From a virus: a stretch of DNA of 44,621 nt. The stretch lies in the IMG/VR virus record IMGVR_UViG_3300024259_000063, positions 1-44,621 of that record; one strand, written 5' to 3'. The position numbers and the translations under genes were made by a program. The notes below the pieces were generated by a model, which saw only the letters and a program-made list of their open reading frames with translations, had not been told where the DNA came from and did not search any database. Positions 12,307 to 41,561 of the stretch are shown piece by piece; position 1 is the first letter of the stretch; each line of letters begins with the position of its first letter.

Positions 12307-12546
12307 TTATTTACCAATTTTGACCTTCTTTGCCCGAATATTTCTTCTCTTACGGGGTTTAGGTTTAGATTGGTTTTCTAATCTGAATATCTCTTCCTTT
12401 AGTGAGTCTCTTACAAATATCAGATGTAAGTTCTCAGCTTCCATTTCAGAATGTTTGTTATTAGCCATTACAGTAGTTATTACCATACCAACTAACATTC
12501 CAACTATTATACCTAACCATACCCAGCCTATTATTGTTATATCCAT
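12307..12546 (-). CDS. Membrane-anchored coiled-coil protein
   Basis: The 79-residue protein has one N-terminal transmembrane helix (6-27), an acidic/basic coiled coil (SEMEAENLHLIF, DSLKEEIFRLENQ) and a very basic tail (KPKPRKRRNIRAKKVK). The tail would face the cytoplasm and could bind nucleic acid. It begins in a TAATG overlap with the Mom-like gene upstream and has an AGGAG site. Confidence 0.55.
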   Translation of the reverse strand: MDITIIGWVWLGIIVGMLVGMVITTVMANNKHSEMEAENLHLIFVRDSLKEEIFRLENQSKPKPRKRRNIRAKKVKIGK

Positions 12547-13292
12547 TACTTACTCCTTACGTTTATTTTTATTACTTCTGGTTCTACTATATCCGCTGTC
12601 TTTGGATACGGAAATAGTGGATGTTTTAAATTCTTTAGAGCCGTCCTCTTTTCATTTTTACTACCGAGCAGATACACATACCTATGCTTTCTCAATTCTT
12701 TCTTTACCCAAAAATCTTTCTCCACCAAGCTCTTCATCTTCTCTATATCATTTGTTCCATAATACGGAAATATCGTTCTACCATGCTGAAATTTACCATT
12801 CTCATCAAACTTAAATAACCAGCTATCATTCGGCCTTATTCTATTACCCTGATATAACCAATTGGTTGCTTGGTATATTGTACCGACATGACCCTGCTGT
12901 GGGTCTGAATATGATATGAGAGCCTTTATATCTTTTCTATTCTCCTTTAACCAATTGAAGCCTTCACCTATTAGATTTGACTCTATATTACTACCATACC
13001 CATCGTGTATAAATAACCTTACTAATTCATATACTGACTCACGTGGTATAGCCGCTGATACTGAAGCACCTGAATGTCTACCTATTGGATCACCATAGCA
13101 TATTGTACCGATTAGTTTTTCTTCTGGCTCATCAAAGAATTGGTGTTCATTACCTGTAGTATAATATAATCCCAAAGCAACACTACATTTAGTCCATTGT
13201 TTCGAGTAGTGGTATTTAACCACCATATTTTTAGCAACCTTCCTATCTATTTCCCTAACCGATAATCGTGATGTATCTACATAATCATTCAT
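12546..13292 (-). CDS. Mom-like DNA modification acyltransferase (long form, copy 1)
   Basis: The 248-residue protein belongs to the Mom family of GNAT-fold proteins. Seen: YVDTSRLSVREI near the start; KYHYSKQW (about 27-34); an acceptor-like segment EPEEKLIGTICYGDP; ELVRLFIHDGYGSNIESN; and SYSDPQQGHVGTIYQATNW (about 134-152). Known: phage Mu Mom converts adenine to N6-(methylcarbamoyl)adenine in DNA, which protects against restriction. It is clearly paralogous to 40797-41561, with which it shares most of these motifs. Here it lies among small accessory genes rather than in the replisome operon. Its exact modification is unknown. Confidence 0.7.
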   Translation of the reverse strand: MNDYVDTSRLSVREIDRKVAKNMVVKYHYSKQWTKCSVALGLYYTTGNEHQFFDEPEEKLIGTICYGDPIGRHSGASVSAAIPRESVYELVRLFIHDGYGSNIESNLIGEGFNWLKENRKDIKALISYSDPQQGHVGTIYQATNWLYQGNRIRPNDSWLFKFDENGKFQHGRTIFPYYGTNDIEKMKSLVEKDFWVKKELRKHRYVYLLGSKNEKRTALKNLKHPLFPYPKTADIVEPEVIKINVRSK

Positions 13293-13500
13293 CAACTATT
13301 TCTATTGAAAGAACTTCGTCATGGCCAGGTTTATCATAATGGTAATCCCAATCTAAATCATCCATCCATTCAGGTTCCCACTCATTTCTTTCAGCACCAT
13401 TCTCTTTCCAATCTTCGTATTCTTTGGCTTGTTCATCTGTAATCTCAGCACGATACCATATATGATTTTCCTGTACTTCAAATTTTTCTATTATAGGCAT
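13285..13500 (-). CDS. Hypothetical acidic protein
   Basis: The 71-residue protein is very acidic and Trp-rich (DWKENGAERNEWEPEWMDD). Such acidic proteins can act as DNA mimics, but no evidence beyond composition exists. It starts in a TAATG overlap and ends in an eight-base overlap with the Mom-like gene, so it is co-translated with that gene. Confidence 0.55.
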   Translation of the reverse strand: MPIIEKFEVQENHIWYRAEITDEQAKEYEDWKENGAERNEWEPEWMDDLDWDYHYDKPGHDEVLSIEIVDE

Positions 13501-13670
13501 TATTCTTCCTCTTCTTCTAAAAATTCTGATTCTTGGTGGATTACAACTATACTCCCACTTTCTTCTGTTGGATTCGTTTCATAGTCCAACTTCATTTGTA
13601 TAGCCTCCGCCTCTATCTCAGCTGCTAATATTTCTAATTCCTTTTGTTGTTCTTTTGTTAAATCTTTCAT
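13500..13670 (-). CDS. 56-aa acidic protein
   Basis: The frame is coupled at both ends (ATGA at 13667-13670 and TAATG at 13498-13502). The product is helical and acidic (EQQKELEILAAEIEAEAI), ending in a Glu run (FLEEEEE). No family was recognised. With its acidic neighbour it forms a pair immediately before the Mom-like gene. Confidence 0.55.
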   Translation of the reverse strand: MKDLTKEQQKELEILAAEIEAEAIQMKLDYETNPTEESGSIVVIHQESEFLEEEEE

Positions 13671-13930
13671 ACCTTTAACTCATCATCCGATATTTCACTA
13701 TCTTCTTTCCACCATTCTACTTGTCCATGTGATGATGGCTTTCTTAACCCCATCTCCAGTTTTTTATCATATTCAGTTCTTGTCATTACTTTCCATAAAT
13801 TATCAAACTCTTTTTGGTCTATTCGTTTAATACCACGAAAGTATGTTTTTGCACCACTAAGACCTACATTACTGGCAAGGTCAACTGTGGTGATAACATT
13901 ATCCCCCCTATCCACCAATACATATTTCAT
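13667..13930 (-). CDS. Hypothetical protein
   Basis: The 87-residue protein starts with a beta-rich segment (MKYVLVDRGDNVITTVDLAS), followed by GAKTYFRGIKRIDQKEFDNL and an acidic C-terminus. No family was recognised. It has a good AGGAG ribosome site and heads the coupled group 13930-12307, which includes a Mom-like gene. Confidence 0.55.
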   Translation of the reverse strand: MKYVLVDRGDNVITTVDLASNVGLSGAKTYFRGIKRIDQKEFDNLWKVMTRTEYDKKLEMGLRKPSSHGQVEWWKEDSEISDDELKV

Positions 13931-13941
13931 AACTTAATCTC

Positions 13942-14466
13942 CTAATCAAATATCAAATGAAACTCGCCATAGGTTTCTTCATACAGCCAATTGTCATAAT
14001 AACCATAAAATATTGTAGCCGTATCACCTCTCATTGTTTTAACGGGCGCAATCATAGTATTTACTTCTCCATCTTCTCTACTATATGAAGAGCCATTAAC
14101 AATTGGAACTTCATACCCATTAAACCCCGTTACATAACTTGTATCATAACTTACATATATCAAATCATCTGTAAGCCCACGTCTAATAATATACCCAAGA
14201 GTATCTCCTAACATCCAATAATGTGAGCTAGACCACCCAAACTTTATTACATTAACTGGATTACCATTTCTATATACATTCCCACTTATTCTATGAAGTG
14301 TTTGCCATTTAGTAGTATCAATCGATACATGGTAATAACCGTTAATATCAATTTCTGATTCTAATTGTAGTTCAAATCTAATAGGTGCAATCGGTTCAGC
14401 TGATTCACACCCGATAAATAAACTAAACCCTATTAGGGTGATTAGACCAACTATTTTTCTTATCAC
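13942..14466 (-). CDS. Putative lipoprotein (GTG start)
   Basis: The 174-residue protein has a lipoprotein signal peptide with lipobox LFIGC (Cys about 20), followed by ESAEPIAP and a beta-rich C-terminal domain full of Tyr, Ser, Thr and Asp. No known domain was recognised. An AAGGAA site precedes the GTG, which overlaps the previous gene. It would be anchored in the outer membrane or on the cell surface of the host. Confidence 0.6.
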   Translation of the reverse strand: MIRKIVGLITLIGFSLFIGCESAEPIAPIRFELQLESEIDINGYYHVSIDTTKWQTLHRISGNVYRNGNPVNVIKFGWSSSHYWMLGDTLGYIIRRGLTDDLIYVSYDTSYVTGFNGYEVPIVNGSSYSREDGEVNTMIAPVKTMRGDTATIFYGYYDNWLYEETYGEFHLIFD

Positions 14467-14590
14467 GAGTCGTTTCCTTTTTCTTTACGTCTTTCCAAGA
14501 CTTTTTTTGTTTCTTTGGTTTCTTTTTTGGTTCTACAACTTCACGAAAAGCTTCTTCTTCAAGCTCATCATAATACTCATATTTTCCCAC
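14423..14590 (-). CDS. 55-aa lysine-rich protein (GTG start)
   Basis: The GTG at 14590 has AGGAG seven bases upstream and gives MGKYEYYDELEEEAFREVVE, then a lysine-rich tail (PKKKPKKQKKSWKDVKKK). The half acidic, half basic layout is suitable for protein or nucleic-acid interactions. Oddly, the promoter at 14604-14633 would start transcription close to, or inside, the ribosome site, so initiation may be weak or the promoter may serve the next genes. Confidence 0.45.
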   Translation of the reverse strand: MGKYEYYDELEEEAFREVVEPKKKPKKQKKSWKDVKKKETTRDKKNSWSNHPNRV

Positions 14591-14603
14591 TTTCCTTCTC
14601 CTA

Positions 14604-14633
14604 AATATACTCAACTTATACCATACAAGTCAA
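14604..14633 (-). promoter_or_regulatory. Sigma70-like promoter, TTGACT-N18-TATATT
   Basis: TTGACT at 14633-14628 and TATATT at 14609-14604, spacer 18, followed by TAGG. It is located between the end of the 78-aa gene (14630) and the lysine-rich gene, and could drive the group 14590-12307. Confidence 0.65.
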
Positions 14634-14866
14634 GACATTATTTTCCATTTTTTAATTAAATCTAAAAATTCTTCTACTGAATAAGGGTTCTTTTTCTCAT
14701 CTATAATTGCTATAGATTCTAACGCTTCGGGTTCTCTTATAACCATATTGTGAAATGCTTGAAACCCCCGCCCCGTATACAGAGTACCGAATGACTCTTC
14801 ACCTAATATATTCTCGTCCCAAATATCTTCAACAGTATCATTATCCATTAATATATAGTATGTCAT
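14630..14866 (-). CDS. Hypothetical protein
   Basis: The 78-residue protein has MTYYILMDNDTVEDIWDENI at its N-terminus and a C-terminal EEFLDLIKKWKIMS. No family was recognised. It is separated from the glycan island (ending at 14883) by a short AT-rich gap containing AATAAATA, which resembles the T4-type late promoter -10 (TATAAATA). Confidence 0.5.
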   Translation of the reverse strand: MTYYILMDNDTVEDIWDENILGEESFGTLYTGRGFQAFHNMVIREPEALESIAIIDEKKNPYSVEEFLDLIKKWKIMS

Positions 14867-14882
14867 AGTAATATATATGTAT

Positions 14883-16673
14883 TTATTTTACTAAAATCAA
14901 ATCTTTTTCATATGTATCTAAAGATTTAATATCAAGTTCAAATATCTCCAATTGCATAATTCCTATCTCACCACTATCTTGTAGTATCTCTGATAGATTA
15001 ACTAATATCTGGAAATTTTGGGATGTAAGTTTGCCAGCATCAAATCTGACCACTATATTGTTCTTTGGTTCAATGTGCTGAGAGTGTATCTTCTTACTCA
15101 AATTAAACTGGGTATCTTTCTGCTCATCTTCAATGTAATTGTTTACACCATAGCCTTTATGTCCAACCCAATCACCATAGATATCACTACACCACGGCTC
15201 TAATTCTTTCAACATATTCGTATCACAATTTTCAACTACAAATCCTATATCATATTTCGGTGGGATTATAGGTTTCAAATATTCATCATGTTTTACCATA
15301 TGCCCCCATTTACGAATGAAGTTACGAGTACTCCTTAGATTTTGAGCCAACCACTCTGAACTCTCCCTACCTTTCATAAACACTTGACCTGCTGGATTTC
15401 TCATAGCCCCATCCTTAAATCTACTACCCCTACAAGTCATATGATATACCAACCCCTTCCAAGTCTGTATTGTCTCGTAACCTGCAAGAATGAACCGATT
15501 AAATATGTCCGAATCCTCTTTCGACTGAGGTGCGTATAGGGGATCGTGCCCACCGATTGCCAAGAAGTCATCTTTGTATATTGCCCAAGGTGCGAATATA
15601 CCTTGAGTGGTTTCATGATTTAATGCTAGTGGTCCATATAATATTCCAACGCCCGATTGGATTTCATCTACTAACTCTAAAAGCTTATCCTCTTTGAATT
15701 CCTCGGGTTCTATTCCAAAATCTTTAAGTATCTTCTCAGGGCCATCCGGATGTAATGGTGGTTCTATTCTAGTGGCACTTACTACCTTACCTCGCTCCAA
15801 ATGCTTCAATACTTCCACATCCATATTAGGGCAAGCATACATATCTGCATGGTATATCATAATGATATCATTGGTAGCCATATCTACTAACGTATCGTAC
15901 AGTATCGTATGACCTAACCGTGTGGGTCCTTCGTTTCTATGTATCTTTACATTTATATCTTTTTCAGCAATCTCTTGCATCCATTCCCAAGTCCCATCAT
16001 CAGAGAAATCGTCCGCCCAGCATATCTCATGCCTATATCCCAAATTCTTTCTGATACTATTGTATGACCACTTTAGGTATTTTAGATTGTTTCTACTGGG
16101 CTGAATAAAACTTATTACTTTCATATTTTCCTTCCATAACTTTTCTAATTCTGTAAAATAATAATCGGGCTTAACTTTAGCACTATGTTTACTTATAGTA
16201 TACAGTTCATCCAAATTATAAACACTTTCCAAATCAATTAGACTTAACTCACCATCCTTTGTACGAATAATATTGGATGCCACCAAATCATAGAAGAACA
16301 TTTTTGTCTCTTTAGCTTTACTCAGTACCCTTTCGTAAAACCTTAACTCTTTTAGTATATCATCAAACTCTGTACCCAATGGAGTTCCAGCTTCTGTTGC
16401 GTAACCTACTATTTCATCATTCAATTCTGGATGTACAATTACCGAATGTAATGCTGGTGCTAACCCATCAAAGAATCCCAATCGAAGAGCCCTTTCAAAA
16501 TTCTCTCTCCGACAATAATCATCATCAAATATCTTATAGTATAAATCCTTCTCTTCATCGTGTAGAACCTGTCTGCCATGATTTACACCATCTACTACTC
16601 TACCAGCTTTATCTAATACTACCCTACAATGAGTAGTGTCTATGTCGTTAATATTTATTCTACTAATAAGCAT
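14883..16673 (-). CDS. Kinase-like domain fused to GT2 glycosyltransferase
   Basis: The 596-residue protein has two parts. Residues 1 to about 180 look like an atypical (RIO/LPS-kinase or APH-like) kinase, with FFYDLVASNIIRTKDGELSL followed by IDLESV (the HxDxxxxN/D-x-E core with His replaced). From about 183, FIQPSRNNLKYLKWSYNSI, WADDFSDDGTWEW and the DxD-like HADMYACPN mark a GT-A, family 2 glycosyltransferase domain. The C-terminal 100 residues are unassigned. A kinase joined to a transferase suggests combined sugar phosphorylation and transfer onto a glycan. The ATG at 16673, with an 11-base overlap, is preferred over the one 33 bases upstream; neither has a clear ribosome site. Confidence 0.65.
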   Translation of the reverse strand: MLISRININDIDTTHCRVVLDKAGRVVDGVNHGRQVLHDEEKDLYYKIFDDDYCRRENFERALRLGFFDGLAPALHSVIVHPELNDEIVGYATEAGTPLGTEFDDILKELRFYERVLSKAKETKMFFYDLVASNIIRTKDGELSLIDLESVYNLDELYTISKHSAKVKPDYYFTELEKLWKENMKVISFIQPSRNNLKYLKWSYNSIRKNLGYRHEICWADDFSDDGTWEWMQEIAEKDINVKIHRNEGPTRLGHTILYDTLVDMATNDIIMIYHADMYACPNMDVEVLKHLERGKVVSATRIEPPLHPDGPEKILKDFGIEPEEFKEDKLLELVDEIQSGVGILYGPLALNHETTQGIFAPWAIYKDDFLAIGGHDPLYAPQSKEDSDIFNRFILAGYETIQTWKGLVYHMTCRGSRFKDGAMRNPAGQVFMKGRESSEWLAQNLRSTRNFIRKWGHMVKHDEYLKPIIPPKYDIGFVVENCDTNMLKELEPWCSDIYGDWVGHKGYGVNNYIEDEQKDTQFNLSKKIHSQHIEPKNNIVVRFDAGKLTSQNFQILVNLSEILQDSGEIGIMQLEIFELDIKSLDTYEKDLILVK

Positions 16674-17328
16674 ATGGATACAAATCCCGGTCGTTAGAAT
16701 GTTCATCTATAAAATCTATAGGAACTGATTTAAAATTATCTTCATCTATAAATTCATTGCCAGCCTTTTTAAGAGCACAATAAATCATAACACCCCCATC
16801 AGCATTATGTTCAAATAATTCCAAGACTTCATAGTTACATAGCTCTGCTAAGACTTTGAATGAGTCCATAGTATAATAATATTTACAGTGTTTAGGAAAG
16901 TATCCGACTTTAGGCAAAATGTGGATCATTAAGCCACCATCCCTTGTTATATTATGGATATTTTTTAAACACATATACTGATTATCAACGTGCTCTGCAG
17001 TTCCCCCATCGTACACAACATCAAATTCTTTTGAAAAGTGATCAGCAACATCATTTCTCAAATCTAACTTTAAAGAACCATCGTACCCATTCAGATCAAT
17101 TGAAGTATGATTGAATCCAATGTGAGTCCAGAATGTCTTTGAGACAACACCATATTTATGTTGTTGACCACCGATAGGGAAATTAAAGTTCTGAAGCTTG
17201 AACCACTCAACCATCTCATCACCTTTCATATAATTGTTACCCAACTCACAAAAGCTTAAATTCTCTTTACCATCCAAGCTCTCAAGACTATTCATTAAAG
17301 GTATAATTTCTTTATATCCAATTGCCAT
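16663..17328 (-). CDS. SAM-dependent methyltransferase-like protein
   Basis: The 221-residue protein has a degenerate Rossmann methyltransferase layout: NLSFCELGNNYMKGD (motif I-like), SIDLNGYDGSLKLDLR (motif II-like), FDVVYDGGTAEHVDN (motif IV, usually D..i...vlEHv) and a GGLMIHILP segment (motif V-like). It is probably a sugar O- or N-methyltransferase, or a relative that has lost activity, since the motif I glycines differ from E.G.G.G. The start overlaps the upstream methyltransferase in TAATG. The C-terminus DRDLYPYAY is Tyr-rich. Confidence 0.6.
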   Translation of the reverse strand: MAIGYKEIIPLMNSLESLDGKENLSFCELGNNYMKGDEMVEWFKLQNFNFPIGGQQHKYGVVSKTFWTHIGFNHTSIDLNGYDGSLKLDLRNDVADHFSKEFDVVYDGGTAEHVDNQYMCLKNIHNITRDGGLMIHILPKVGYFPKHCKYYYTMDSFKVLAELCNYEVLELFEHNADGGVMIYCALKKAGNEFIDEDNFKSVPIDFIDEHSNDRDLYPYAY

Positions 17329-18131
17329 TACATTCCCTTTCTAAATAATTGTTTAGACCCAATTCCCACACCACATTCTAAGTAATAACTATTATCACTT
17401 ATATTCACATATCCCATCTCAGCAAATTCTTTCCGTAACAACGATAAATCGGGAGTCACGTGCATAAAATCTTCTTTATGATCTTTAATATTTGTAATCA
17501 TTAAGCCACCATCCTTAATGTACCCATCCATTAACCTGAAATAGTCTATGGGATTATACAAGTGTTCAAAAACTTCAACAGTTATAGCTACATCACATTC
17601 ACCGATATCTGGAAAGAAAGCGCCGCTATCTTTGGGTGGAGCATAAAATTCAAACTCTATTTCTAAATTAGCACACACATATTCTAAAAATTGCTGTCTG
17701 ATAGTAGGTATATCTATAAGATGGAGTTTAACCTTAACCCCCACATCTTTCAATCGGATAGCATACGCTATAGAGTAAGGCGCTATACCACACCCATAAT
17801 CAAAAATATGTACATCATCTCTACCCTTAACTTCATTATAAACAGTATCCCTTTCTAATATCTGAGGAGTTGGTAGTGACAGCATTCTCAAAAAGTGCAT
17901 GTAGCTATGGTACTGATAAGCTTCGTATACTAAATCTTTACTATCAGCTGAAAATGGATAGTATAAGTCGTGTGATGTGCCACAGAACTCTTTAAATTTG
18001 CCGCTGTGATGACCACCCACAGCATTAAAAGATTTTTTAAATCTATCCAAACTTTCTTCTACTGAAATATTTAATCTTTCAGAATTCCAATAGACGAAAT
18101 AGCCCTGCATCATATTCAGTTCAATTTCCAT
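17328..18131 (-). CDS. Class I SAM-dependent methyltransferase
   Basis: The 267-residue protein has a good motif I (VHIFDYGCGIAPYSIAYA, about 107-124), motif II (KLHLIDIP), motif IV (CDVAITVEVFEHLYNPIDYF) and motif V (DGGLMITNIKDH). This is typical of class I methyltransferases that modify sugars or lipids. An N-terminal helical region (about 1-90) precedes the domain. It sits between a glycosyltransferase-like gene and a second methyltransferase with TAATG overlaps on both sides, consistent with O-methylation of the glycan. Confidence 0.75.
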   Translation of the reverse strand: MEIELNMMQGYFVYWNSERLNISVEESLDRFKKSFNAVGGHHSGKFKEFCGTSHDLYYPFSADSKDLVYEAYQYHSYMHFLRMLSLPTPQILERDTVYNEVKGRDDVHIFDYGCGIAPYSIAYAIRLKDVGVKVKLHLIDIPTIRQQFLEYVCANLEIEFEFYAPPKDSGAFFPDIGECDVAITVEVFEHLYNPIDYFRLMDGYIKDGGLMITNIKDHKEDFMHVTPDLSLLRKEFAEMGYVNISDNSYYLECGVGIGSKQLFRKGM

Positions 18132-19828: not shown

Positions 19829-20441
19829 TCTGTACTCCCGTATAAATTTTAAATTGTTCTTTTGCTTGATATAATGCCATTTCTTTTCCTGTATCCGTAT
19901 GTGGTCTACCGTCTATTAAAAAATTATCTGTCTTTATATCAACAGGAGTGGCATTAAAAAGAACTTTATCATTAAGTTTATCTATTAATCTCCAATCTTT
20001 TCTTGTAATAATATTAAACTTAATATCCATAATATTACAGGTATATTGAACAGCCTTACTAAAACCACCATTACCTATAATATATATTGAATCAAATCTT
20101 CTTATTTCAAAATACTTTTTTACACCAATCCAATCTGTATTGTATCCTCTTAAATACCCATTAGTATTCACTACCGTATTAACAGATCCAATTTTATTTG
20201 CTGAACTTTCTACTCCATCTAGATAATTTAACGCTTCAATCTTAAATGGCATACTTAAAGCAAATCCTTTTATATCAAGACTCTTTACTGCATCTATGGA
20301 TTTTTTAATATCATCTGAATAAAAAGATTTATATATGGCATCAATGCCATTTCTTTCAAATTTACCATTAAAAAATTTACAGCCATTATTTCCTGGATTA
20401 GACGAAAACGAACAATATATTTTAGTGTCTTTATTAATCAT
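19821..20441 (-). CDS. Shikimate dehydrogenase (AroE)-like protein
   Basis: The 206-residue protein carries the AroE signature: KGFALSMPFKIEAL (catalytic Lys of GxxVTxPxK, about 58-71), KIGSVNTVVN (GAVNTv), GYNTDWIGVKKY (GxNTDxxG with catalytic Asp, about 96-107), a nucleotide-binding IGNGGFSKAV (GaGGaskA), FNATPV (iNaTpvG) and a C-terminal YQAKEQFKIYTGV (QaaeqF.lwtG). It is about 65 residues shorter than typical AroE, mainly in the N-terminal substrate domain. The Thr of VTxPxK is Ser-Met here. In the middle of a glycan cluster it probably acts on a polyol or cyclitol rather than feeding aromatic synthesis. Confidence 0.75.
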   Translation of the reverse strand: MINKDTKIYCSFSSNPGNNGCKFFNGKFERNGIDAIYKSFYSDDIKKSIDAVKSLDIKGFALSMPFKIEALNYLDGVESSANKIGSVNTVVNTNGYLRGYNTDWIGVKKYFEIRRFDSIYIIGNGGFSKAVQYTCNIMDIKFNIITRKDWRLIDKLNDKVLFNATPVDIKTDNFLIDGRPHTDTGKEMALYQAKEQFKIYTGVQID

Positions 20442-22329
20442 TTAATTCCTGTAACATCTTTTTTGATTTAAAAAATAATAAATCTCCGAGCTCCTTTTCG
20501 TGTAATGGGGCCATATTCAAAAATATAAGAGAAGTAATAGTCTTGACCTTATCTAAATCATATCCACTATCTACAATCCACTTTTCATACACCAACTTAA
20601 ACTGATCCAACTTAGATTCAGATTTATAATCATAAGTTACCATACCACCATCAGCATAACAAGAAAAATTGTTGCTATCCTTCATTAATTTATATGACAT
20701 TAAGATACCACCATACATTTTTGCCAAATCATAATATACGTCACCTACATTACTACCAGCAAAATCTTGTCTCCAATCCAATAAACAAAAATCTCTATCT
20801 TCTGTATAAATAACATTATCAAATTGTAAATCACCATGGAACAATTTAGTTGGTGTCCCGTCACTCAAACTATCCCAATTCCGGTTCGATAATAAGCTGT
20901 CAATGGGGGGTGCCGTAATACCATTAATTATATGGCTACCCAAATACGATTCATCTCTAACTGATAAAAACTTATCCAATCTATCTCTAGTTTTATCTTT
21001 ATAAAACTTTAAACAATCCTTTTTAAACTCGTTCACACGAACAGATTTCCACATTTTATCTTTCATAAACTTCAAAAACTCTATCCAGACATCAATATCA
21101 TTACAGTCATACAAAGTGTTACCATCTACCCATTTATAAGAATACAGGCTCTTTCCACTATAATTTAACTCGGGTACTAAATCTCCCAGTTCCGAAGACC
21201 TTTTTATCCTACCTCCAATAAAACTTTTATCCGAAGATAATTTTATAAAGTTATCATTAACTTTATATAAAAATTCACCATTAGTTTTTGGGATGCTATA
21301 ATCTACCGATGTTTCGAATATTTTTTTGGCTCTAAAATAATTATCAATTGTGCCTACATCATACCAATCAAAATTATTACTTCTTATACTTGAATATTTA
21401 TCAACATCGTAATAAGCGCTTACAATCTCATTACCATTCAACTCTTCCCAAAAAGTTTTATAATCATAAACTCCTGCCAATCCAATAAATGCATAATCGT
21501 ACCCACCCTTAGACTTATTCTTAAAATCTATTACATTCCCATCTATAATATTTGCTGTAGAATATAATTCAGGCATACTGGTTGGATACACACCCATCCA
21601 ATTATAATCAGCTGATGGTAAATCATCCGTAACAACGGTGTCTGCTGTTACCCAAATAAATGGTCGTTGTAAATGTTTCTTTGCCTGTCTAATTGAATAT
21701 CCAGGTCCAGTTCCTTCCCCTTCATATTCATCAACTGTAACGTAAATAAAATTTCTATCTGGATGAGCTACCTCACAATATTCTTTAACCATTTCACTTT
21801 TATATCCTAAAACCATAACAACATCATAATCTTCTGATGTTTTATCAATAAGATGAGATATAATTGCCTGGTTATTTAATGGTAACAATCCCTTATTTAT
21901 ATGTTCTGAAAAATTCTCTAATCTACTACCAATACCAGCCGCTAATATACACAGAGCAGGTTTCATATGTTCGTGTTCTATTTTTCCAGAACCACGATCT
22001 GAGTCATCTGAAATTCTAATCACATCATCAACTTCAGGGGTAGAAACTTCCTGTAAAATTATATCAGTGATCGCAATTACTCTATGTTTCTTTGGTGGTT
22101 CTACGGTGAAGAAGTCTCCAGCCTTCATAATTTTTTTATCTACCACACCGTCATCATTTTCCAACCAAACTTCCGCAGTACCTTCAATTATATAATTTGT
22201 TTCTAACTTTTGGTTATGGTATTGATAACTTGTCTTTGTTCCGGCATTAATGTATATTCTTTTATAACAATATTTATCATTCAGCTCTAACCAATCCTCT
22301 CTTCCCCAAGGTTTATATATCGTTTTCAT
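20434..22329 (-). CDS. Cupin-nucleotidyltransferase-APH kinase fusion
   Basis: The 631-residue protein has three parts. Residues 1-110 form a cupin like the mannose-6-phosphate isomerase half of type II enzymes (KPWGREDWLEL, KTSYQYHNQKLETNYIIEG in pieces, GDFFTVEPPKKHRV). Residues about 123-345 form a sugar-phosphate nucleotidyltransferase (ALCILAAGIGSRL, NKGLLPLNNQAII, FIWVTADTVV, FDWYDVGTIDNY). Residues about 355-631 form a choline/aminoglycoside-kinase-like domain (LFHGDLQFDNVIY, FCLLDWRQDFAG). It could phosphorylate, activate and isomerise one sugar or alcohol, analogous to LicA/LicC or FKP. The HAD gene upstream overlaps it by 17 bases. The ATG at 22329 is used rather than the TTG before it. 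Confidence 0.8.
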   Translation of the reverse strand: MKTIYKPWGREDWLELNDKYCYKRIYINAGTKTSYQYHNQKLETNYIIEGTAEVWLENDDGVVDKKIMKAGDFFTVEPPKKHRVIAITDIILQEVSTPEVDDVIRISDDSDRGSGKIEHEHMKPALCILAAGIGSRLENFSEHINKGLLPLNNQAIISHLIDKTSEDYDVVMVLGYKSEMVKEYCEVAHPDRNFIYVTVDEYEGEGTGPGYSIRQAKKHLQRPFIWVTADTVVTDDLPSADYNWMGVYPTSMPELYSTANIIDGNVIDFKNKSKGGYDYAFIGLAGVYDYKTFWEELNGNEIVSAYYDVDKYSSIRSNNFDWYDVGTIDNYFRAKKIFETSVDYSIPKTNGEFLYKVNDNFIKLSSDKSFIGGRIKRSSELGDLVPELNYSGKSLYSYKWVDGNTLYDCNDIDVWIEFLKFMKDKMWKSVRVNEFKKDCLKFYKDKTRDRLDKFLSVRDESYLGSHIINGITAPPIDSLLSNRNWDSLSDGTPTKLFHGDLQFDNVIYTEDRDFCLLDWRQDFAGSNVGDVYYDLAKMYGGILMSYKLMKDSNNFSCYADGGMVTYDYKSESKLDQFKLVYEKWIVDSGYDLDKVKTITSLIFLNMAPLHEKELGDLLFFKSKKMLQELND

Positions 22330-22675
22330 CAATTAGCCCCTTATTTCTTTCTAAGTTAATTGCGTATGCTGTGTCTCTAACGCTACCAGATTTTCTATCA
22401 TTAATTAATATTCTATCTCCACCACCAAATCCCATTATCAATTGGTCATAATTGATACCAGCTCTTTGCATTTGTTTAATAGTCGATTCTCGCGCACTCT
22501 CTTTTCTACCCGTAGTTATTATTACTCTATAACCTTTTGTGTCCCATTCAACTAACTTATCATGTACACCAGGCAAAACTTCTAACCGCAAATCTGGATT
22601 TTGTATTTCAATTGGATTTGAATGTTTTACTAAAGTCCCATCTAAATCACAAAATATTGTTTTTGGTTTTTCCAT
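22313..22675 (-). CDS. HAD-superfamily phosphatase
   Basis: The 120-residue protein has motif I FCDLDGTLV (Asp nucleophile and acid/base Asp), motif II VIITTGR, and a C-terminal ILINDRKSG (motif IV-like ND). It lacks a large cap, like KdsC/GmhB-type sugar-phosphate phosphatases. It lies between the sugar reductase and the cupin-nucleotidyltransferase-kinase gene and probably removes a phosphate during sugar-nucleotide synthesis. Confidence 0.8.
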   Translation of the reverse strand: MEKPKTIFCDLDGTLVKHSNPIEIQNPDLRLEVLPGVHDKLVEWDTKGYRVIITTGRKESARESTIKQMQRAGINYDQLIMGFGGGDRILINDRKSGSVRDTAYAINLERNKGLIDENDI

Positions 22676-22696
22676 ATTAAACCTTCTCCCAAATAA

Positions 22697-24351: not shown

Positions 24352-24352
24352 C

Positions 24353-32723: not shown

Positions 32724-32724
32724 A

Positions 32725-34224: not shown

Positions 34225-34232
34225 TTCAACTC

Positions 34233-35624: not shown

Positions 35625-35639
35625 AATAACCTTACAATT

Positions 35640-35756
35640 TTAATCATTCAATAACTTCTTTTCCCCATCTTCTGGATCAAGATTCTTTTTTATATCCAAC
35701 AAGCATGCCTCCATTCGACACAATACTGTAAGAATTTCTAGAAGTAATTCCTTCAT
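35640..35756 (-). CDS. 38-aa hypothetical protein
   Basis: The frame starts in an ATGA overlap with the RHH-like gene. The product is helical and acidic (MKELLLEILTVLCRMEACLL, then KKNLDPEDGEKK). No ribosome site is visible, so coupled translation is the support. Confidence 0.45.
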   Translation of the reverse strand: MKELLLEILTVLCRMEACLLDIKKNLDPEDGEKKLLND

Positions 35757-35941
35757 AACCTGCTGCCGCTGGATATGAGATTTTTATACTCTGATATCGT
35801 AGATCTAAATTTTTCATCATGAACATACAAGTCCATAGATCGATTTATTAGCTTTTGTAGTGTAAAGTTATCATCTAAATTACTTATTTTGAATTTTTTG
35901 TATAGATTGTCTAATAACTTCACGGATGTCAATTTCAACAT
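35753..35941 (-). CDS. Ribbon-helix-helix-like small protein
   Basis: The 62-residue protein has LKLTSVKLLDNLYKKFKI (strand then helix) and NFTLQKLINRSMDLY (second helix). This fits the MetJ/Arc ribbon-helix-helix pattern often seen in small phage regulators. GGAGG lies seven bases upstream of the ATG. It may regulate the island or the replication genes. Confidence 0.6.
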   Translation of the reverse strand: MLKLTSVKLLDNLYKKFKISNLDDNFTLQKLINRSMDLYVHDEKFRSTISEYKNLISSGSRL

Positions 35942-35979
35942 AACATTTCCTCCGTATATATATATATAAATAGTAAAAA

Positions 35980-36381
35980 CTAATTTATTATTACATATTT
36001 TTTTTCATTTTTCTTAGCTTCTCTCAAAGCGCTTTCAGTTCCTTTGGATGCGATTCCCTTTGGTATAAAGGCAACTACAACATCACTATACTCGACCAGA
36101 TGTTTATTTCTATCGTGATAATGCCAAACAGCATAAGGTCTGCTATATTTATAACTTTCAAGAACACAATGTTGATTGTAAGTATAATGAACGGGTGGAA
36201 ACTCTGAATATTTAGTATCAAACTCTAAAGCGTATTTTTTAGCATATCCATCAGCCCCATCTTTTTGTCCACCACTCACTATTTCTAATTTATCTCCGTA
36301 CTTTTCCTTTAACTTAAAGATAAACTCTTGGATACGTCTTTTATTTGTATACTGCCTGCTTCCCACTATTGCTACTCTCAT
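35980..36381 (-). CDS. SLOG-fold (YspA/DprA-like) protein
   Basis: The 133-residue protein starts MRVAIVGSRQYTNKRRIQEF and has IVSGGQKDGADGYAKKYAL, then DVVVAFIPKGIASKGTESAL. The GSR, SGGxxGAD and G(S/T)xxxL motifs define SLOG nucleotide-binding proteins. These bind nucleotide-derived ligands, and some act in phage-host conflict. The internal ATG has AGAGGA upstream; the longer frame lies inside the previous gene. Confidence 0.75.
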   Translation of the reverse strand: MRVAIVGSRQYTNKRRIQEFIFKLKEKYGDKLEIVSGGQKDGADGYAKKYALEFDTKYSEFPPVHYTYNQHCVLESYKYSRPYAVWHYHDRNKHLVEYSDVVVAFIPKGIASKGTESALREAKKNEKKYVIIN

Positions 36382-36790
36382 AATCGTTCCTCTTTTGTTT
36401 TTTAGCTGGTTTATCAGATGTACAGAATTTAGCACACTTATGAAACTCATCCAATCCTTTTAAAATATCTTCTTTACTACTATAAGTATGTCGGAATCGA
36501 ATCCTATTTGAAGTATCATCATTATTTTGACCAATAATATCAAACCACACAAAGTCATTTACTTTAATCTCACTACCAACCTTTACAGTTGAACTAAAAT
36601 GTAATTTGGATTCATATTTTAATAAAAATTGTTTTAAATCTTTGTTAGAGACTTCCCCCGCTTCATACCACAATATTAAATAAAATTTAATAGAATCACG
36701 ATGGATATCTTCTAATTTTTTCATAACCGCTTCTTCATGTGGCATTTTCAAAAAATCAAATAGATTCATTCTTAAAGTTATTTTGACCAT
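36341..36790 (-). CDS. Hypothetical protein
   Basis: The 149-residue protein has a helical N-terminal part (HEEAVMKKLEDIHRDSIKFY) and a C-terminal GLDEFHKCAKFCTSDKPAK. No family was recognised. It has a TAATG junction with the nuclease and overlaps the SLOG gene by 41 bases, consistent with coupling to both. Confidence 0.55.
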   Translation of the reverse strand: MVKITLRMNLFDFLKMPHEEAVMKKLEDIHRDSIKFYLILWYEAGEVSNKDLKQFLLKYESKLHFSSTVKVGSEIKVNDFVWFDIIGQNNDDTSNRIRFRHTYSSKEDILKGLDEFHKCAKFCTSDKPAKKQKRNDYESSNSGKQAVYK

Positions 36791-37656
36791 TATTTAACTC
36801 CCGCGTCACAAAATTCCGTTTGATTGAAGTCACACCACTTACAGTTTTTCTTAGATGCCACTTTACTATAAGTATGTTCAGTATTGTATTCTCCATTAGA
36901 ATCAAAACACTCTTCTACAAATTCACCCAATCTCTTTGTTACTTGATTGATTGATGGTTTACCATTAGCTGGAATAAACTTCTGAACTCTCTTTTGTGGG
37001 AAGTCCAAGTTCTCATATAACTTTCTCTTCACAATAAAGTATTCAACTTCTATTTTGTCTAGCGGGTGGTTAAATTGCTTTGAGTAGAATTGTTTGTATA
37101 ACAATAGTTGGTCACTCTTTAACTTATCAGCCTTCTGCCACTTGTTCCAACCCATAGTAGATGTTTTAATATCATAAATCTTAATCACATCTCTTACTGT
37201 ATCTCTAATTACTACATCCAAATAACCTACAAACTTAATACCACCAGGTAAATCAAAGTCAAGTGGTACTTCTATTCCAATAAGTTCATAGCCCTTCTTA
37301 CTAAAATACTGAGCTCTCTTCTTTCGCAGGAACTCTAATATTAATAGACCATGGTCATAGAACTCTACCATATCAGCTTGCGTGCAAAACTCAACTCCAC
37401 CATTTTTTGTCATAGCAGACTCGTAATTTCTCTTCATTCTGATTCTCAACATTTCCGGTAATGGTAAGGCTTCAGCAGCCTTTGCTGTGTCCTCATACAT
37501 TACAGTTAGAAATGTTTGTATCACTTCGTGCATCGCCTTTCCGAAAAGGGTATGAATTGACTCTGTAAACTCTCTCTTCTTATCTATATATGATAACTTC
37601 CATCTATGCGGACATTGAGCCCACATTGAGTATTGACTGTATGATATTCTACCCAT
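36790..37656 (-). CDS. PD-(D/E)XK nuclease, RecB/AddB/Cas4-like with four Cys
   Basis: The 288-residue protein starts MGRISYSQYSMWAQCPHRWK (RecB/Cas4 entry motif S.l..f..CP..y). GKAMHEVIQTFL carries the conserved His. KFVGYLDVVIRD (catalytic D), IKIYDIKTSTMGW (D-x-K) and SDQLLLYKQF (QxxxY) complete the nuclease core. One Cys near residue 14 and NCKWCDFNQTEFC near 272-285 fit the AddB/Cas4 Fe-S pattern (C...CxxC...C). Known: such enzymes resect DNA ends. It probably works in recombination-dependent replication. The ATG in a TAATG overlap is chosen over an upstream GTG. Confidence 0.8.
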   Translation of the reverse strand: MGRISYSQYSMWAQCPHRWKLSYIDKKREFTESIHTLFGKAMHEVIQTFLTVMYEDTAKAAEALPLPEMLRIRMKRNYESAMTKNGGVEFCTQADMVEFYDHGLLILEFLRKKRAQYFSKKGYELIGIEVPLDFDLPGGIKFVGYLDVVIRDTVRDVIKIYDIKTSTMGWNKWQKADKLKSDQLLLYKQFYSKQFNHPLDKIEVEYFIVKRKLYENLDFPQKRVQKFIPANGKPSINQVTKRLGEFVEECFDSNGEYNTEHTYSKVASKKNCKWCDFNQTEFCDAGVK

Positions 37657-37790
37657 TAATCTACCCACCTACCGTGTTTAATTAAATGCCAAGTTCTATG
37701 TAATAATATTTGACATACTAAAAAGAGTAGATTGTCATTCTCATAAAACCCCTCTTCTACTTCTAATTTATACTTAGGTTTGTAAGCCAC
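37656..37790 (-). CDS. 44-aa hypothetical protein (GTG start)
   Basis: The frame exactly fills the gap between the 36-aa membrane peptide and the nuclease: GTG overlaps the previous stop by one base and its TAA overlaps the next ATG. The product (MAYKPKYKLEVEEGFYENDN, then LLHRTWHLIKHGRWV) is basic at the C-terminus. No ribosome site was seen. Confidence 0.45.
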   Translation of the reverse strand: MAYKPKYKLEVEEGFYENDNLLFLVCQILLHRTWHLIKHGRWVD

Positions 37791-37900
37791 TATTTTAACC
37801 ACTTATCTACTATCCAATCTACAATATCTGTCAGCCACACTAATCCTATAATGACTACCATCCACCACCATTCTGATGTATAATGTAATAATCCTTCCAT
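37790..37900 (-). CDS. 36-aa membrane peptide
   Basis: The ATG follows the previous stop by one base. The product MEGLLHYTSEWWWMVVIIG plus a charged tail is a single transmembrane span with a Trp cluster at the interface. Similar micro-peptides occur at 1693, 7621 and 11645. Confidence 0.5.
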   Translation of the reverse strand: MEGLLHYTSEWWWMVVIIGLVWLTDIVDWIVDKWLK

Positions 37901-37901
37901 A

Positions 37902-38084
37902 CTATTCCCAAATCCTTGCTACTCTACGAATGAAACCTAAAGTGGCTCCAAACCCAAAGGCTATCGCGGCGATTTGTAAATCACCCAAATACATGGCTAT
38001 TGAGGCCATTAAGTATGATGCGAATCTAAATACACCATAAATTGAAAATTCATTTTGTGAATTCAAATGTTCTCTTCTTGTCAT
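37902..38084 (-). CDS. 60-aa membrane protein
   Basis: The product starts MTRREHLNSQNEFSIYG, followed by hydrophobic segments FASYLMASIAMYLG and IAAIAFGFGATLG and a basic end (IRRVARIWE). The ATG just after the Nmad1 stop is preferred to one seven codons earlier. The function is unknown. Confidence 0.5.
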   Translation of the reverse strand: MTRREHLNSQNEFSIYGVFRFASYLMASIAMYLGDLQIAAIAFGFGATLGFIRRVARIWE

Positions 38085-38085
38085 A

Positions 38086-38520
38086 TTATTTACCCCACTT
38101 ACCATTCTTTACGATTGTTGCCATAATTCCATAATTAGCTATATCAAGAAACGCATCTTCCATTGGTTCATTTTCTACTGCATTTTTACGACCACTCATT
38201 AAGAGATTCTTTAATCGTTGTATCTTATCGTTCATTCTGAACCACAAACCTGTAAGTGATAAGTGAACTTCTTCTTTTGTTTGTAATTGTGTTCCAACTG
38301 AAATGTTACCAGGACCATAATCATGTTGTTTGTGTAGAAACAACTCATATTGTTCCCTTTGTAATCTTTTAAATTCTTTGGTCATTTGTGGCCACTCTTG
38401 TTCCATCATAGTTACAATATCACCGTGGTCACCCGTTAAATAAGAATTTACTTCTTTTTTATTTCCATAGTGATTGGTATATTTCTCTTTTGTTTTAGAT
38501 TCTTTTATTATATCACTCAT
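38086..38520 (-). CDS. Nmad1 (DUF1599-like) nucleotide-modification-associated protein
   Basis: The 144-residue protein contains KQHDYGPGNISVGTQL, then LTGLWFRMNDKIQRLKNLLM, NEPMEDAFLDIANYGIMATI. This is the Nmad1/DUF1599 pattern (K..DYG..N, R..DK..RL..L, E...D...DlanY). Iyer and colleagues proposed that the family acts with modified DNA bases. It is placed directly after a Mom-like gene and has its own TTGACT-N18-TATATT promoter. GGAGGAG lies four bases upstream of the chosen ATG. Its activity is uncharacterised. Confidence 0.75.
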   Translation of the reverse strand: MSDIIKESKTKEKYTNHYGNKKEVNSYLTGDHGDIVTMMEQEWPQMTKEFKRLQREQYELFLHKQHDYGPGNISVGTQLQTKEEVHLSLTGLWFRMNDKIQRLKNLLMSGRKNAVENEPMEDAFLDIANYGIMATIVKNGKWGK

Positions 38521-38543
38521 CAATCTCCTCCAAGTTAGATGCA

Positions 38544-38573
38544 AATATACACATTTTTTAGTATATTAGTCAA
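38544..38573 (-). promoter_or_regulatory. Sigma70-like promoter, TTGACT-N18-TATATT
   Basis: TTGACT at 38573-38568 and TATATT at 38549-38544, spacer 18. The -35 lies in the 3' end of the Mom-like gene, and the Nmad1 ATG is 24 bases from the -10. It would give internal transcription of the nuclease/SLOG part of the block. Confidence 0.7.
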
Positions 38574-39189
38574 GGTTTTTTATTTGTCTTTTAATTTTTT
38601 TATTTAGATAGTATGTATAAATATGTTTGGGTTTTCTCTTAACAAAAAATACATTTGGATCTTTCGCATCATATCTTCTTTTTAACTCTCTACCATACGG
38701 CCTTTTATCTTGATTCAGAGACCGAGTATGCATTTCTCTCCCATCAACCATTAGCACTCTAGCCGAACCAGTTTCTCCTAAATAATCAAAGTTACTAGCC
38801 TTATAAATTGTTCCAGAATGACCATAGTGTTGATCAGCAAATGAAACTATAACCTCTATATCTGTATTGTGCTTTAGCCACCTTAAAGTTTTACCGATAA
38901 AATAACTTTCCGTATTCTTTGGTGTATCATCAATACAAACCAATCTTCGTAGCTCCATACACCTATCGGGATTAATTGGATTGTACTTAGCAGCCGTATG
39001 TGGCATCGATGGCATAGCATACATCATAGCCCCAATCATCTTAGGTAATCCAAAGTTGCCATCTGTATATAAGCCAAAGTGATGGTAAGATTGAATACCA
39101 TTTACATTCTGTGAATAGTGATGCTTCTCTATGAAACTGACAAGCGCCTTTCGATTTATGTATTCAACTGTGAAGTCGGTTACAGACAT
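38566..39189 (-). CDS. Mom-like DNA modification acyltransferase (short form)
   Basis: The 207-residue protein has EKHHYSQNVNG (about 20-30), an ELRRLVCIDDTPKNTESYF segment, and SFADQHYGHSGTIYKASNF (about 117-135), all hallmarks of the Mom/GNAT family. It is closer in length to Mu Mom (231 residues) than the two long copies, and less similar to them than they are to each other. It lies between gp62 and the Nmad1 gene, so modification of replicating DNA is the obvious hypothesis. No ribosome site was seen. Confidence 0.7.
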   Translation of the reverse strand: MSVTDFTVEYINRKALVSFIEKHHYSQNVNGIQSYHHFGLYTDGNFGLPKMIGAMMYAMPSMPHTAAKYNPINPDRCMELRRLVCIDDTPKNTESYFIGKTLRWLKHNTDIEVIVSFADQHYGHSGTIYKASNFDYLGETGSARVLMVDGREMHTRSLNQDKRPYGRELKRRYDAKDPNVFFVKRKPKHIYTYYLNKKIKRQIKNLD

Positions 39190-39192
39190 TTT

Positions 39193-39648
39193 TTACGATA
39201 TTAAGCCGAGCTTTCGAATTTCTTTTTGTTCAATTCCATACCTACCTAAAATATCAGCTAATTCTGCTTGACCACCTGCTGAGATTTCATACATCTCTAC
39301 AGCATCGTCAGCTTCTCTCATACTAACCTGTAAGTGTTTGGCTACGATATCATAGACCCATTTTGGATATTTCATTTTCTTATCTCCTTTGATATATTTC
39401 AACCATTGTTTTTTCTTTGGTAAAATATCTATATAAACTTTATACAATTCTTTTGGCTGTAATGGATACTTCTGAACTTCGTTTACAAATTCAATCCAAT
39501 CAGGCTTCATTGAAAGAAACCTATTAACCATATAATTTGACCACGACTTCTTATCATCATCAGAAATCTCATCCCAATAATTAGGATTTTGTTGAGATGT
39601 TATAGCACTTATATGATCAAATAAATTTTTTCTTTTAACCTTCGGCAT
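39193..39648 (-). CDS. 62: Clamp-loader small subunit, gp62-like
   Basis: The 151-residue protein starts MPKVKRKNLFDHISAITSQQ and contains WDEISDDDKKSWSNYMVNRF, the typical N-terminal region of T4 gp62 homologues (d.k.ws.ymvnRfls). It is shorter than T4 gp62 (187 residues). Known: one gp62 with four gp44 subunits loads the gp45 clamp. It overlaps the zinc-ribbon gene by 14 bases. Confidence 0.85.
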   Translation of the reverse strand: MPKVKRKNLFDHISAITSQQNPNYWDEISDDDKKSWSNYMVNRFLSMKPDWIEFVNEVQKYPLQPKELYKVYIDILPKKKQWLKYIKGDKKMKYPKWVYDIVAKHLQVSMREADDAVEMYEISAGGQAELADILGRYGIEQKEIRKLGLIS

Positions 39649-39874
39649 TTTGCTTTAATTTATCTGGCACCTTACCGCAATTCCCACAACTATATACCTG
39701 GATTGGTATAAGTGCTTCTTGTCCTGTTGGAGACATTAGAGCTGATAATCTTCTTAAAAAGAAAGCTTGTATAAATACAGCATTACCACAATCATCACAT
39801 GACATTGTTTCTGTATCATTAATATCTATTTGTGGTTGTTGTTTGCTTAAAGATTTCTGTGCTTTCATATTCAT
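39635..39874 (-). CDS. Conserved zinc-ribbon protein between gp44 and gp62
   Basis: The 79-residue protein has MSCDDCGNAVF (24-34) and VYSCGNCGKVP (60-70), a CxxC...CxxC ribbon, with GQEALIPIQVY between. Small proteins of this type lie at the same place in other marine T4-like phages, so they are probably linked to the replisome. The function is unknown. Confidence 0.7.
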   Translation of the reverse strand: MNMKAQKSLSKQQPQIDINDTETMSCDDCGNAVFIQAFFLRRLSALMSPTGQEALIPIQVYSCGNCGKVPDKLKQNAEG

Positions 39875-40809
39875 TTTATAACTCCTAATAATTCTATTAA
39901 CATAGCCATAGCATTTATCTCTTTATCAACCACCTGCGCATCTGATAACTGATATTTAGCTATGGTTAAAATACATTCTGCTACATGCCCTTTACCATAA
40001 TTATCAACTTCATCGTACAGTAAACGAAATACGTCAGCAAAGTCTGATATTTGATTATCTCCCAACATTTTTCTGATGGTGATAAAAGCATCTTTTTTAT
40101 TTTGAGTTTTCAATACATTAACTACCTGTGTAGAAAATACATTGACATTCAAATCAGTTGCGAGTAAATTGTTTTGGTCGATTGACAACTTACCATCAAC
40201 TACCTGTCTTTGAGCAAAGTTGATAACTCTACGGATATCAGGATAGCCACCATTAACTAATGTAGCTACATCATCCATCTTAAACTCTACCTTTTCTTGT
40301 TTAAGGATATTGTTTAGATGGACAGCAACTTCTTTTCTCGATGGCGGCACTATCTGAAATGGTTGGCAACGACTCTGTATTGGATCGATTATTCTTTCTA
40401 CAAAGTTACAGGTCAAGATGAACCTACAATGCTTTGAGAAAGTCTCCATAACGTTACGCAAAGCGGCTTGTGCGTTAGGTGTGATGTAATCACACTCATC
40501 TAAGATGATGATTTTAAAATCTTTGAAACCCATCGTAGAAGCAAACCCACGAACTTTATTGCGGACTGTATCAACACTATTCTCATCAGAAGCATTAATA
40601 TACAAATAATCACATTCTATATTATTAACTAATAACTTAGCGAGAGTGGTTTTACCTGTACCAGCTCTTCCATACAAAAGGAGATGTGGCAAATCACCAC
40701 TTTTTAAATAAACCTCAACCTTACTCTTGAGATGTTTATTCCCAATGTAAGTATCTAATGATGTAGGCCGGTACTTCTCTACCCACAAGCTATGTTCTAT
40801 TTTTTCCAT
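39871..40809 (-). CDS. 44: Clamp-loader ATPase, gp44-like
   Basis: The 312-residue AAA+ ATPase has WVEKYRPTSLDTYIGNKHLK, Walker A GRAGTGKTT (47-55), Walker B IILDECDYIT (101-110), sensor 1 ILTCN and the SRC motif (146-148) with the trans-acting Arg. T4 gp44 is 319 residues. The ATG overlaps the Mom-like gene by 13 bases. Confidence 0.95.
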   Translation of the reverse strand: MEKIEHSLWVEKYRPTSLDTYIGNKHLKSKVEVYLKSGDLPHLLLYGRAGTGKTTLAKLLVNNIECDYLYINASDENSVDTVRNKVRGFASTMGFKDFKIIILDECDYITPNAQAALRNVMETFSKHCRFILTCNFVERIIDPIQSRCQPFQIVPPSRKEVAVHLNNILKQEKVEFKMDDVATLVNGGYPDIRRVINFAQRQVVDGKLSIDQNNLLATDLNVNVFSTQVVNVLKTQNKKDAFITIRKMLGDNQISDFADVFRLLYDEVDNYGKGHVAECILTIAKYQLSDAQVVDKEINAMAMLIELLGVIK

Positions 40810-41561
40810 TTATCGTCATCAACCTCTATTTTTCTTATTTCAATATTGTGTTTATAGTTCTTAGGATACTCCATTTGTGGGTGTTTCATCACACTATGAA
40901 ATTTCCTATTTTCTTTTTTGTCACCCAAAAAGTAAATGTATCTATGCTTACTAGCTTCTTTCTTCAGCCAAAATGTATGACCAATAGATTTTACCATCTT
41001 CTTTGGATCAGCCGAACCAAATTTTGAATACACACTTCGACTATGCATCCAATCCCCATCTTCCGTAAGTCTAAGTGAATATGTAGGTGCTAACTGAAAA
41101 TCGCCACAGCCTTGATATATCCAATTAGTAGCTTGATAGATAGCACCATCATGAGATTGTTCGGGATCAGCATATGATATTAGAACCTTTATGCCTTTGG
41201 CATTTTCTTTCATCCATTTGAATGTTAGACCCAACGCCAAAGACTCAATGTTCTTACCATATCCATCGTGAATGAAGAGTCTCGTTAGTTCTAATATGTT
41301 TCTATTTCCCAAAATTTCTTCTGAGAATATAGAACCAAGAACTCTTCTCCCAACAGGAAAACCATAACAAGCAACTCCTATAAGTTTCTCTTCAGGTTCC
41401 GCAAAGAATTTATGTTCATTATCAGTTTGATAAAAAATTCCAAGCGGATACCTACAAGAAGATAGTCTGCCGCTATAATGATATTTCTCTATCATATCCC
41501 TAGCCAATGGTTTGAAGATTGGTCTAACAGAAACTCTAGACTTATCTACATACTCTTCCAT
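40797..41561 (-). CDS. Mom-like DNA modification acyltransferase (long form, copy 2)
   Basis: The 254-residue protein shares with copy 1 (12546-13292) YVDKSRVSVRPI, KYHYSGRL (26-33), NEHKFFAEPEEKLIG, LTRLFIHDGYGKNIES and SYADPEQSHDGAIYQATNW (about 129-147), plus a KHRYIYFLG end. These are Mom-family GNAT motifs. The gene sits between the clamp (one base apart) and the clamp loader (13-base overlap), which is an unusual place. The likely role is replication-coupled adenine modification to evade restriction; the chemistry is inferred from Mu Mom. Confidence 0.7.
   Translation of the reverse strand: MEEYVDKSRVSVRPIFKPLARDMIEKYHYSGRLSSCRYPLGIFYQTDNEHKFFAEPEEKLIGVACYGFPVGRRVLGSIFSEEILGNRNILELTRLFIHDGYGKNIESLALGLTFKWMKENAKGIKVLISYADPEQSHDGAIYQATNWIYQGCGDFQLAPTYSLRLTEDGDWMHSRSVYSKFGSADPKKMVKSIGHTFWLKKEASKHRYIYFLGDKKENRKFHSVMKHPQMEYPKNYKHNIEIRKIEVDDDKWKK

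Follow-up and report, generated by a model that had tools for sequence, protein, structure and literature searches.

The 44,621-base stretch analysed here, a linear fragment held in IMG/VR as IMGVR_UViG_3300024259_000063 and referred to below as the window, derives from a T4-like phage that carries three intact, mutually diverged genes of the Mom family of DNA modification proteins. Judged from sequence comparisons, this set appears to be a trait of an uncultured virus lineage in which it has been kept by selection. We lean toward the interpretation that all three products are active Mom-type N6-adenine transferases that act on phage DNA and block host restriction, and that the copies are not redundant. 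The three open reading frames (ORFs) are labeled MomA, MomB, and MomC, of which MomC is the short copy and MomA and MomB are the long ones:

12546-13292, minus strand: MomA, 248 amino acids, ATG start; matches PF25680 at 150.5 bits
40797-41561, minus strand: MomB, 254 amino acids, between the sliding clamp and clamp loader genes; 144.7 bits
38566-39189, minus strand: MomC, 207 amino acids, between the gp62 and DUF1599 genes; 148.9 bits

An initial annotation made from the sequence had placed three Mom-family genes at these positions, and profile searches bear this out. All three are in frame and intact, although the codon just before the MomA ATG is an in-frame TTG, and their matches to the Mom profile PF25680 (145-151 bits against a cut-off of 27.1) are full-length, with E values from 4e-42 to 6e-44. 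The PHROGs counterpart, phrog_1384, likewise identifies each as a 'Mom-like DNA modification protein' (E 2e-47 or better). When MomC and MomB were compared with PDB sequences by phmmer, the phage Mu Mom protein (8bv8) was the sole significant match to either (E 5e-15 and 1.7e-8, respectively). A six-frame search of the 44,621-base record recovered exactly these three genes and no fourth Mom. Because the window is a linear fragment, additional copies might be present elsewhere in the genome, outside these 44.6 kb. Mom-nuclease fusions have been described in jumbo phages (PMC7824862), where the restriction-coupled Mom is joined to a nuclease; the window proteins, in contrast, are unfused, since the Mom domain fills each of them and Pfam and PHROGs searches revealed no nuclease domain and no second domain above cut-off. 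MomA and MomB share 49% identity, in keeping with their earlier description as paralogues, and MomC is only 30-31% identical to each, as expected of the copy that had been called more diverged.

Three checks proposed with the initial annotation, namely active-site comparison, structure prediction, and phylogeny together with Mu Mom, proved informative. In an alignment of 101 Mom sequences, with positions given in the numbering of the 241-amino-acid Mu protein, S124 corresponds to S105 in MomA, S107 in MomB, and S95 in MomC, and the position is likewise a serine in the tandem and cultured-phage groups and in Mu itself; the PDB title of 8bv8 is 'phage Mu protein Mom inactive mutant S124A'. Also fixed in all of these groups are H58, Y59, E108, R111, D116, E123, S146, D149, G156, Y159, N163, H183, and Y217, and N121 is nearly invariant (90% in the cultured-phage group). 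A separate alignment of 85 sequences, used for folding, yielded a matching list of invariant residues. Thus, the loss of catalytic residues from two or more copies, which the initial annotation had regarded as fatal to its proposal, was not found, as the core that includes S124 is kept in all three. The same residues bear on the idea that one or two copies have shifted away from DNA, toward a host RNA or protein substrate or a regulatory role. The family offers a precedent for such drift in a weakly Mom-like protein that matches DruA. This protein, found in relatives alongside MomC or MomA, carries Ala instead of the core Asp. However, the core, including the residues equivalent to Mu S124 and D149, is invariant in A, B, and C, and we judge a shift of this kind to be improbable.

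Structure prediction was carried out for MomA and returned Mu Mom as its top PDB match. The AlphaFold2 model built from the 85-sequence alignment (predicted local distance difference test score, pLDDT, 92; predicted template modeling score, pTM, 0.84) supersedes a poor model from 13 close orthologues (pLDDT 51). When this model was searched with Foldseek against 350,542 PDB chains, 8bv8 ranked first (E 1.1e-12), with template modeling scores of 0.60-0.63 on the query and 0.70-0.72 on the target, followed by ordinary GNAT acetyltransferases (E 1e-4). MomA is therefore predicted to have a GNAT-type fold as in Mu Mom.

In the phylogeny of the 101 sequences, in which every clade carries two support values, the three copies fall into three well-supported clades. 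MomA falls among the leading genes of tandem pairs (100/100). MomB joins the second genes of tandems as well as the triple arrays (100/97), and MomC belongs among the lone Moms carried by cultured phages, including ICP1, RaK2, S-SSM7, and Phynn (100/99). Since MomA and MomB group with the first and second tandem genes, the A/B duplication predates the split between the lineages with dispersed and tandem copies, and MomC represents a separate, older branch. The Mu and HGTV-1 branches in this tree are long, and the exact placement of its deep branches is unsure. The A and B groups differ consistently at the column of Mu Y87, where A has Asp and B has Phe, as well as in the loop following the N-x-x-x-x-G motif, making these sites candidate specificity positions. 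Such fixed differences might reflect the transfer of different acyl groups, so that the genome would bear chemically distinct additions that no single modification-sensing defense could target throughout, much as for the alpha- and beta-glucosyltransferases of T4, and paralogous hypermodifiers of this logic do exist (PMC13216743). The core, however, is dominated by residues that are fixed in all Moms, and we consider distinct chemistries rather unlikely.

The same combination of A, B, and C types was found in eight further viral contigs (G001, G002, and G004-G009), and another (G054) has all three in a different arrangement, which brings the IMG/VR contigs with the full set, besides the window, to at least nine. 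The 165-kb contig G001 is a gene-for-gene counterpart of the window, with identities of 93% for MomA, 67% for MomB, 75% for MomC, 85% for the family B DNA polymerase (polB), and 89% for the clamp. Most of the other contigs have two long Moms in tandem, and dozens of related viruses carry tandems of A and B type; these contigs (G and L labels) were selected by Mom similarity, and proportions among them are not frequencies. A MomA relative of 87% identity resides in a contig of the metagenome-assembled genome TMED198, which from its name alone we take to be a Mediterranean Sea sample. Among cultured phages, tblastn located MomB-like sequences at 317 places in 317 records, MomA-like sequences at 263 places in 263 records, and MomC-like sequences at 282 places in 281 records. 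A profile search of 15 Mom-bearing cultured phages revealed one Mom in each, except for a second, weak match within a 584-amino-acid frame of RaK2. Hence, of the roughly 260-320 cultured phages that have a Mom, nearly all carry just one. In one respect the initial annotation needs correcting: the set is not peculiar to this phage, given that at least nine other contigs share it. No earlier report of a multi-Mom lineage was found in the literature searched, outside of which most subscription journals lie, and priority is not established.

Comparisons between orthologues gave median ratios of nonsynonymous to synonymous substitution of 0.12 for MomA, 0.09 for MomB, and 0.12 for MomC, with no usable pair above 0.26, and all three genes are under strong purifying selection. 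Because diverged yet constrained copies have been retained together for so long, they are probably not redundant. As we envision the mechanism, the three proteins would serve as GNAT-fold transferases that, like Mu Mom, act on the N6 position of adenines in the DNA of the phage itself, and the modified adenine would block host restriction enzymes. That the three are catalytically active, that they act on DNA, and that they confer protection is what we infer. Non-redundancy would explain the persistence of the copies, which most likely differ in target-sequence preference and perhaps also in timing. Different target motifs are plausibly the simplest form that non-redundancy could take, with timing, dosage, or different groups as alternatives, and the multi-site modification that the initial annotation had raised is likewise plausible. 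Extending this to a T4-like lineage whose Moms are specialized by motif, and possibly by group, to provide combined adenine protection made alongside the replisome is a more tentative step, which might well be correct but which we do not quite favor.

Multiple copies could instead be alike in both reaction and target sites, kept either so that enough of the DNA is modified to pass a threshold for protection or so that separate stages of infection are covered. The conserved core common to all three proteins and their different operon positions are compatible with this idea, and T4 provides a threshold precedent, as one of its two glucosyltransferases is enough for as long as glucosylation does not drop under 80% (PMC13216743). 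Redundant copies, however, rarely drift as far apart as 49% and 30% identity, with differences fixed between groups, and still remain constrained in separate lineages, and an explanation based on dosage or timing seems unlikely, albeit less so than either different acyl groups or a shift away from DNA.

The lineage presents a natural test of whether Mom enzymes divide their work. To our knowledge, nearly all research on Mom has dealt with phage Mu, which has a single enzyme for which one product has been described. Three long-separated clades also constitute an enzyme set for probing what determines the target motif and the acyl donor. Furthermore, the lineage bears on whether phages stack adenine modifications against a mixture of restriction and modification-sensing defenses, as T4 does with its two glucosyltransferases.

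Several observations weigh against the interpretation given above, among them those on the genomic footprint of modification. The target of Mu Mom is S-A-S-N-Y. In a first contrast among the multi-Mom contigs, 6-bp palindromes containing this target seemed to be spared, whereas composition-matched ones were depleted. Controls revealed that the depletion resides in palindromes with a central AT or TA, that kin without a Mom on the contig behave alike (observed/expected 0.08 for SSWWSS, from small numbers), and that WSSSSW palindromes are spared as well. Palindrome avoidance therefore does not track the presence of Mom, and the pattern, which follows lineage or host, was dropped as a Mom footprint. 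Furthermore, GATC is strongly avoided despite the Moms, with 66 sites seen for 172 expected in the window, 85 for 669 in G001, and 27 for 3386 in 707 kb of the tandem-Mom group (L017-L084, L302-L307, and L313). The corresponding values are 26 for 267 in kin contigs without a Mom, 935 for 1527 in other T4-like contigs, and 0 for 91 in 42 kb of the cultured Microcystis phage Mel-JY01. CTAG and CATG are depleted too. Avoidance of GATC points to host restriction at this site, and because it stays strong in Mom carriers, any protection cannot be general and the pressure against GATC must remain in place. A blanket protection of adenines by the Moms is thus unlikely. Such unrelieved pressure fits a published report that DpnI continues to cut Mu DNA at Dam-methylated GATC even when Mom has modified it (PMC8281217). 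Two other points on this side are that the evidence for the fold comes from the model of one of the three proteins, MomA, and that no clamp-binding end was seen in the Moms, unlike the C-terminal SMERFF of polB.

MomB and MomC reside in a T4-type replication cluster, in the order polB, clamp, MomB, gp44-like, zinc-ribbon, gp62-like, MomC, DUF1599, and then a PD-(D/E)XK nuclease gene and glycosyltransferases. The features of this cluster, together with the ASCH-domain gene outside it, are as follows:

42338-44620, minus strand: family B DNA polymerase, running off the window end; 47% by tblastn to PolB of Mel-JY01
41562-42278, minus strand: T4-type sliding clamp (phrog_223, E 6e-14)
39871-40809, minus strand: gp44-like clamp loader ATPase, from sequence; 41% to a Mel-JY01 gene annotated as HolB ATPase
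39635-39874, minus strand: small CxxC/CxxC zinc-ribbon protein of 79 amino acids; 38% homologue in Mel-JY01
39193-39648, minus strand: gp62-like clamp loader small subunit (phrog_225, E 2e-15)
38086-38544, minus strand: DUF1599/Nmad1 (PF07659, 32.1 bits, cut-off 25)
36790-37668, minus strand: PD-(D/E)XK nuclease (PF12705, 74 bits); 44% in Mel-JY01
3084-3356: ASCH-domain protein, a marginal match (22.5 bits, cut-off 21.2)

MomB starts right at the clamp stop and shares its last 13 bp with the start of gp44, and MomC begins 3 bp after gp62. Because the two genes abut or overlap those for the clamp, gp44, and gp62, MomB and MomC are probably produced together with the replisome, and MomA is encoded about 25 kb away from this cluster. 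Tethering of the Moms to the clamp was also considered and is unsupported, the SMERFF of polB being a plausible clamp-binding end that has no counterpart in the Moms. Among related viruses, Mom sites vary (the clamp-gp44 gap, a place ahead of polB, one beside the PD-(D/E)XK gene, or the interval from gp44 to the small gene) and the rest of the cluster keeps its gene order, such that the Moms behave as mobile cargo of the replication cluster. In one contig (G090, L312:6569-8879), three Moms directly follow one another, flanked by gp44 on one side and the small zinc-ribbon gene on the other.

The initial annotation had also linked MomC to the neighboring Nmad1 gene and proposed a multi-step hypermodification pathway of Mom and Nmad1, perhaps with the ASCH-domain protein. 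The adjacency itself is real, as MomC ends 21 bp upstream of the DUF1599 gene in the window and the two adjoin in its kin. However, Mel-JY01, whose polymerase is the closest among cultured relatives (47%) and which is devoid of Mom by profile, has the same run of polB, clamp, gp44, small gene, gp62, and DUF1599 (45% identical) together with the PD-(D/E)XK gene. In several tandem-Mom viruses DUF1599 is located 8-14 kb away from the Moms, and in G055 and G090 the cluster next to the Moms yielded no DUF1599 match. The adjacency was therefore inherited from the replication cluster, of which DUF1599/Nmad1 appears to be an independent member rather than part of a Mom system. The ASCH match is marginal and has no link to the Moms, no evidence for multiple steps was found, and such a pathway is very improbable. 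Similarly, the zinc-ribbon ORF was ruled out as a Com homologue; it is superficially Com-like, but with a relative in Mom-free Mel-JY01 it does not appear to be linked to Mom. A Dam-type methylase (PF02086) was also sought as a partner, and none was present in 15 multi-Mom records.

Known systems resemble this one in part. Mu Mom, named 'methylcarbamoylase' in the PDB, produces N6-methylcarbamoyladenine (PMC8281217) and renders DNA refractory to restriction (PMC4461284). It shares with the window proteins a full-length family match, a GNAT-type fold (in the MomA model), and the core including S124, but is only 25-28% identical to them and is a single copy rather than one of three. Mu mom is expressed late under the control of C and Com, and its expression is lethal to the cell when mistimed or too strong (PMC4461284, PMC6483171), whereas MomB and MomC are in a replication operon among clamp and clamp loader genes, where no Mu-type com-mom unit with a dedicated Com zinc finger was encountered. 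The single Moms of ICP1, RaK2, S-SSM7, Phynn, and Enterococcus phage Alamo belong to the clade of MomC (38-46% identity), but each of these phages has one Mom, with the weak second match of RaK2 as noted. The closest cultured relative of MomA and MomB (43-46%) is the Mom of Polaribacter phage P12002L, which, unlike those of the window, is single and adjoins a DNA methylase gene. T4 likewise uses more than one enzyme to modify its own DNA after replication, an arrangement rare in cultured phages, and its second glucosyltransferase matters when the DNA glycosylase Brig1 coexists with restriction systems (PMC13216743). These enzymes add glucose to 5-hydroxymethylcytosine and have another fold, so the analogy is purely functional.

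Other observations concern genes found beside Moms. A protein of about 200 amino acids directly follows MomC in L126:10293-10886, L164:6558-7172, L148, L150, L183, L185, L189, and L190, and follows MomA in L016:8916-9503; it is absent from the window. It matches Druantia DruA (PF14236, 31 bits against 27) in L126 and L016, falling just under the cut-off in L164, and also matches Mom weakly, keeping G-x-x-Y-x-A-x-N-W with Ala at the Mom core Asp. These features suggest kinship between DruA and Mom, and that in phages a protein of this type accompanies Mom. A single Mom adjoins a DNA methylase gene in P12002L (L134:2155-3666), Phynn (L138:800-2073), and Vibrio phage 1.187.O (L141:1501-2855). In Synechococcus phage DSL-LC03 (L136:2424-3594), a gene annotated as a type II restriction endonuclease overlaps the Mom start, a pair that could be a phage-borne restriction-plus-Mom unit. 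Two T4-like contigs (G106:C1:24877-25443 and G108:C1:7491-8057) have a distant Mom match broken by three TGA codons, which might be a pseudogene or a gene in which TGA is decoded as an amino acid. Finally, an extended island of sugar genes, glycosyltransferase-like ones among them, occupies 14883-35624 of the window, between MomA and the replication cluster; it might serve the glycosylation of either surfaces or DNA, and includes an ORF (20434-22332) with a cysteine-dioxygenase-like N-terminus.

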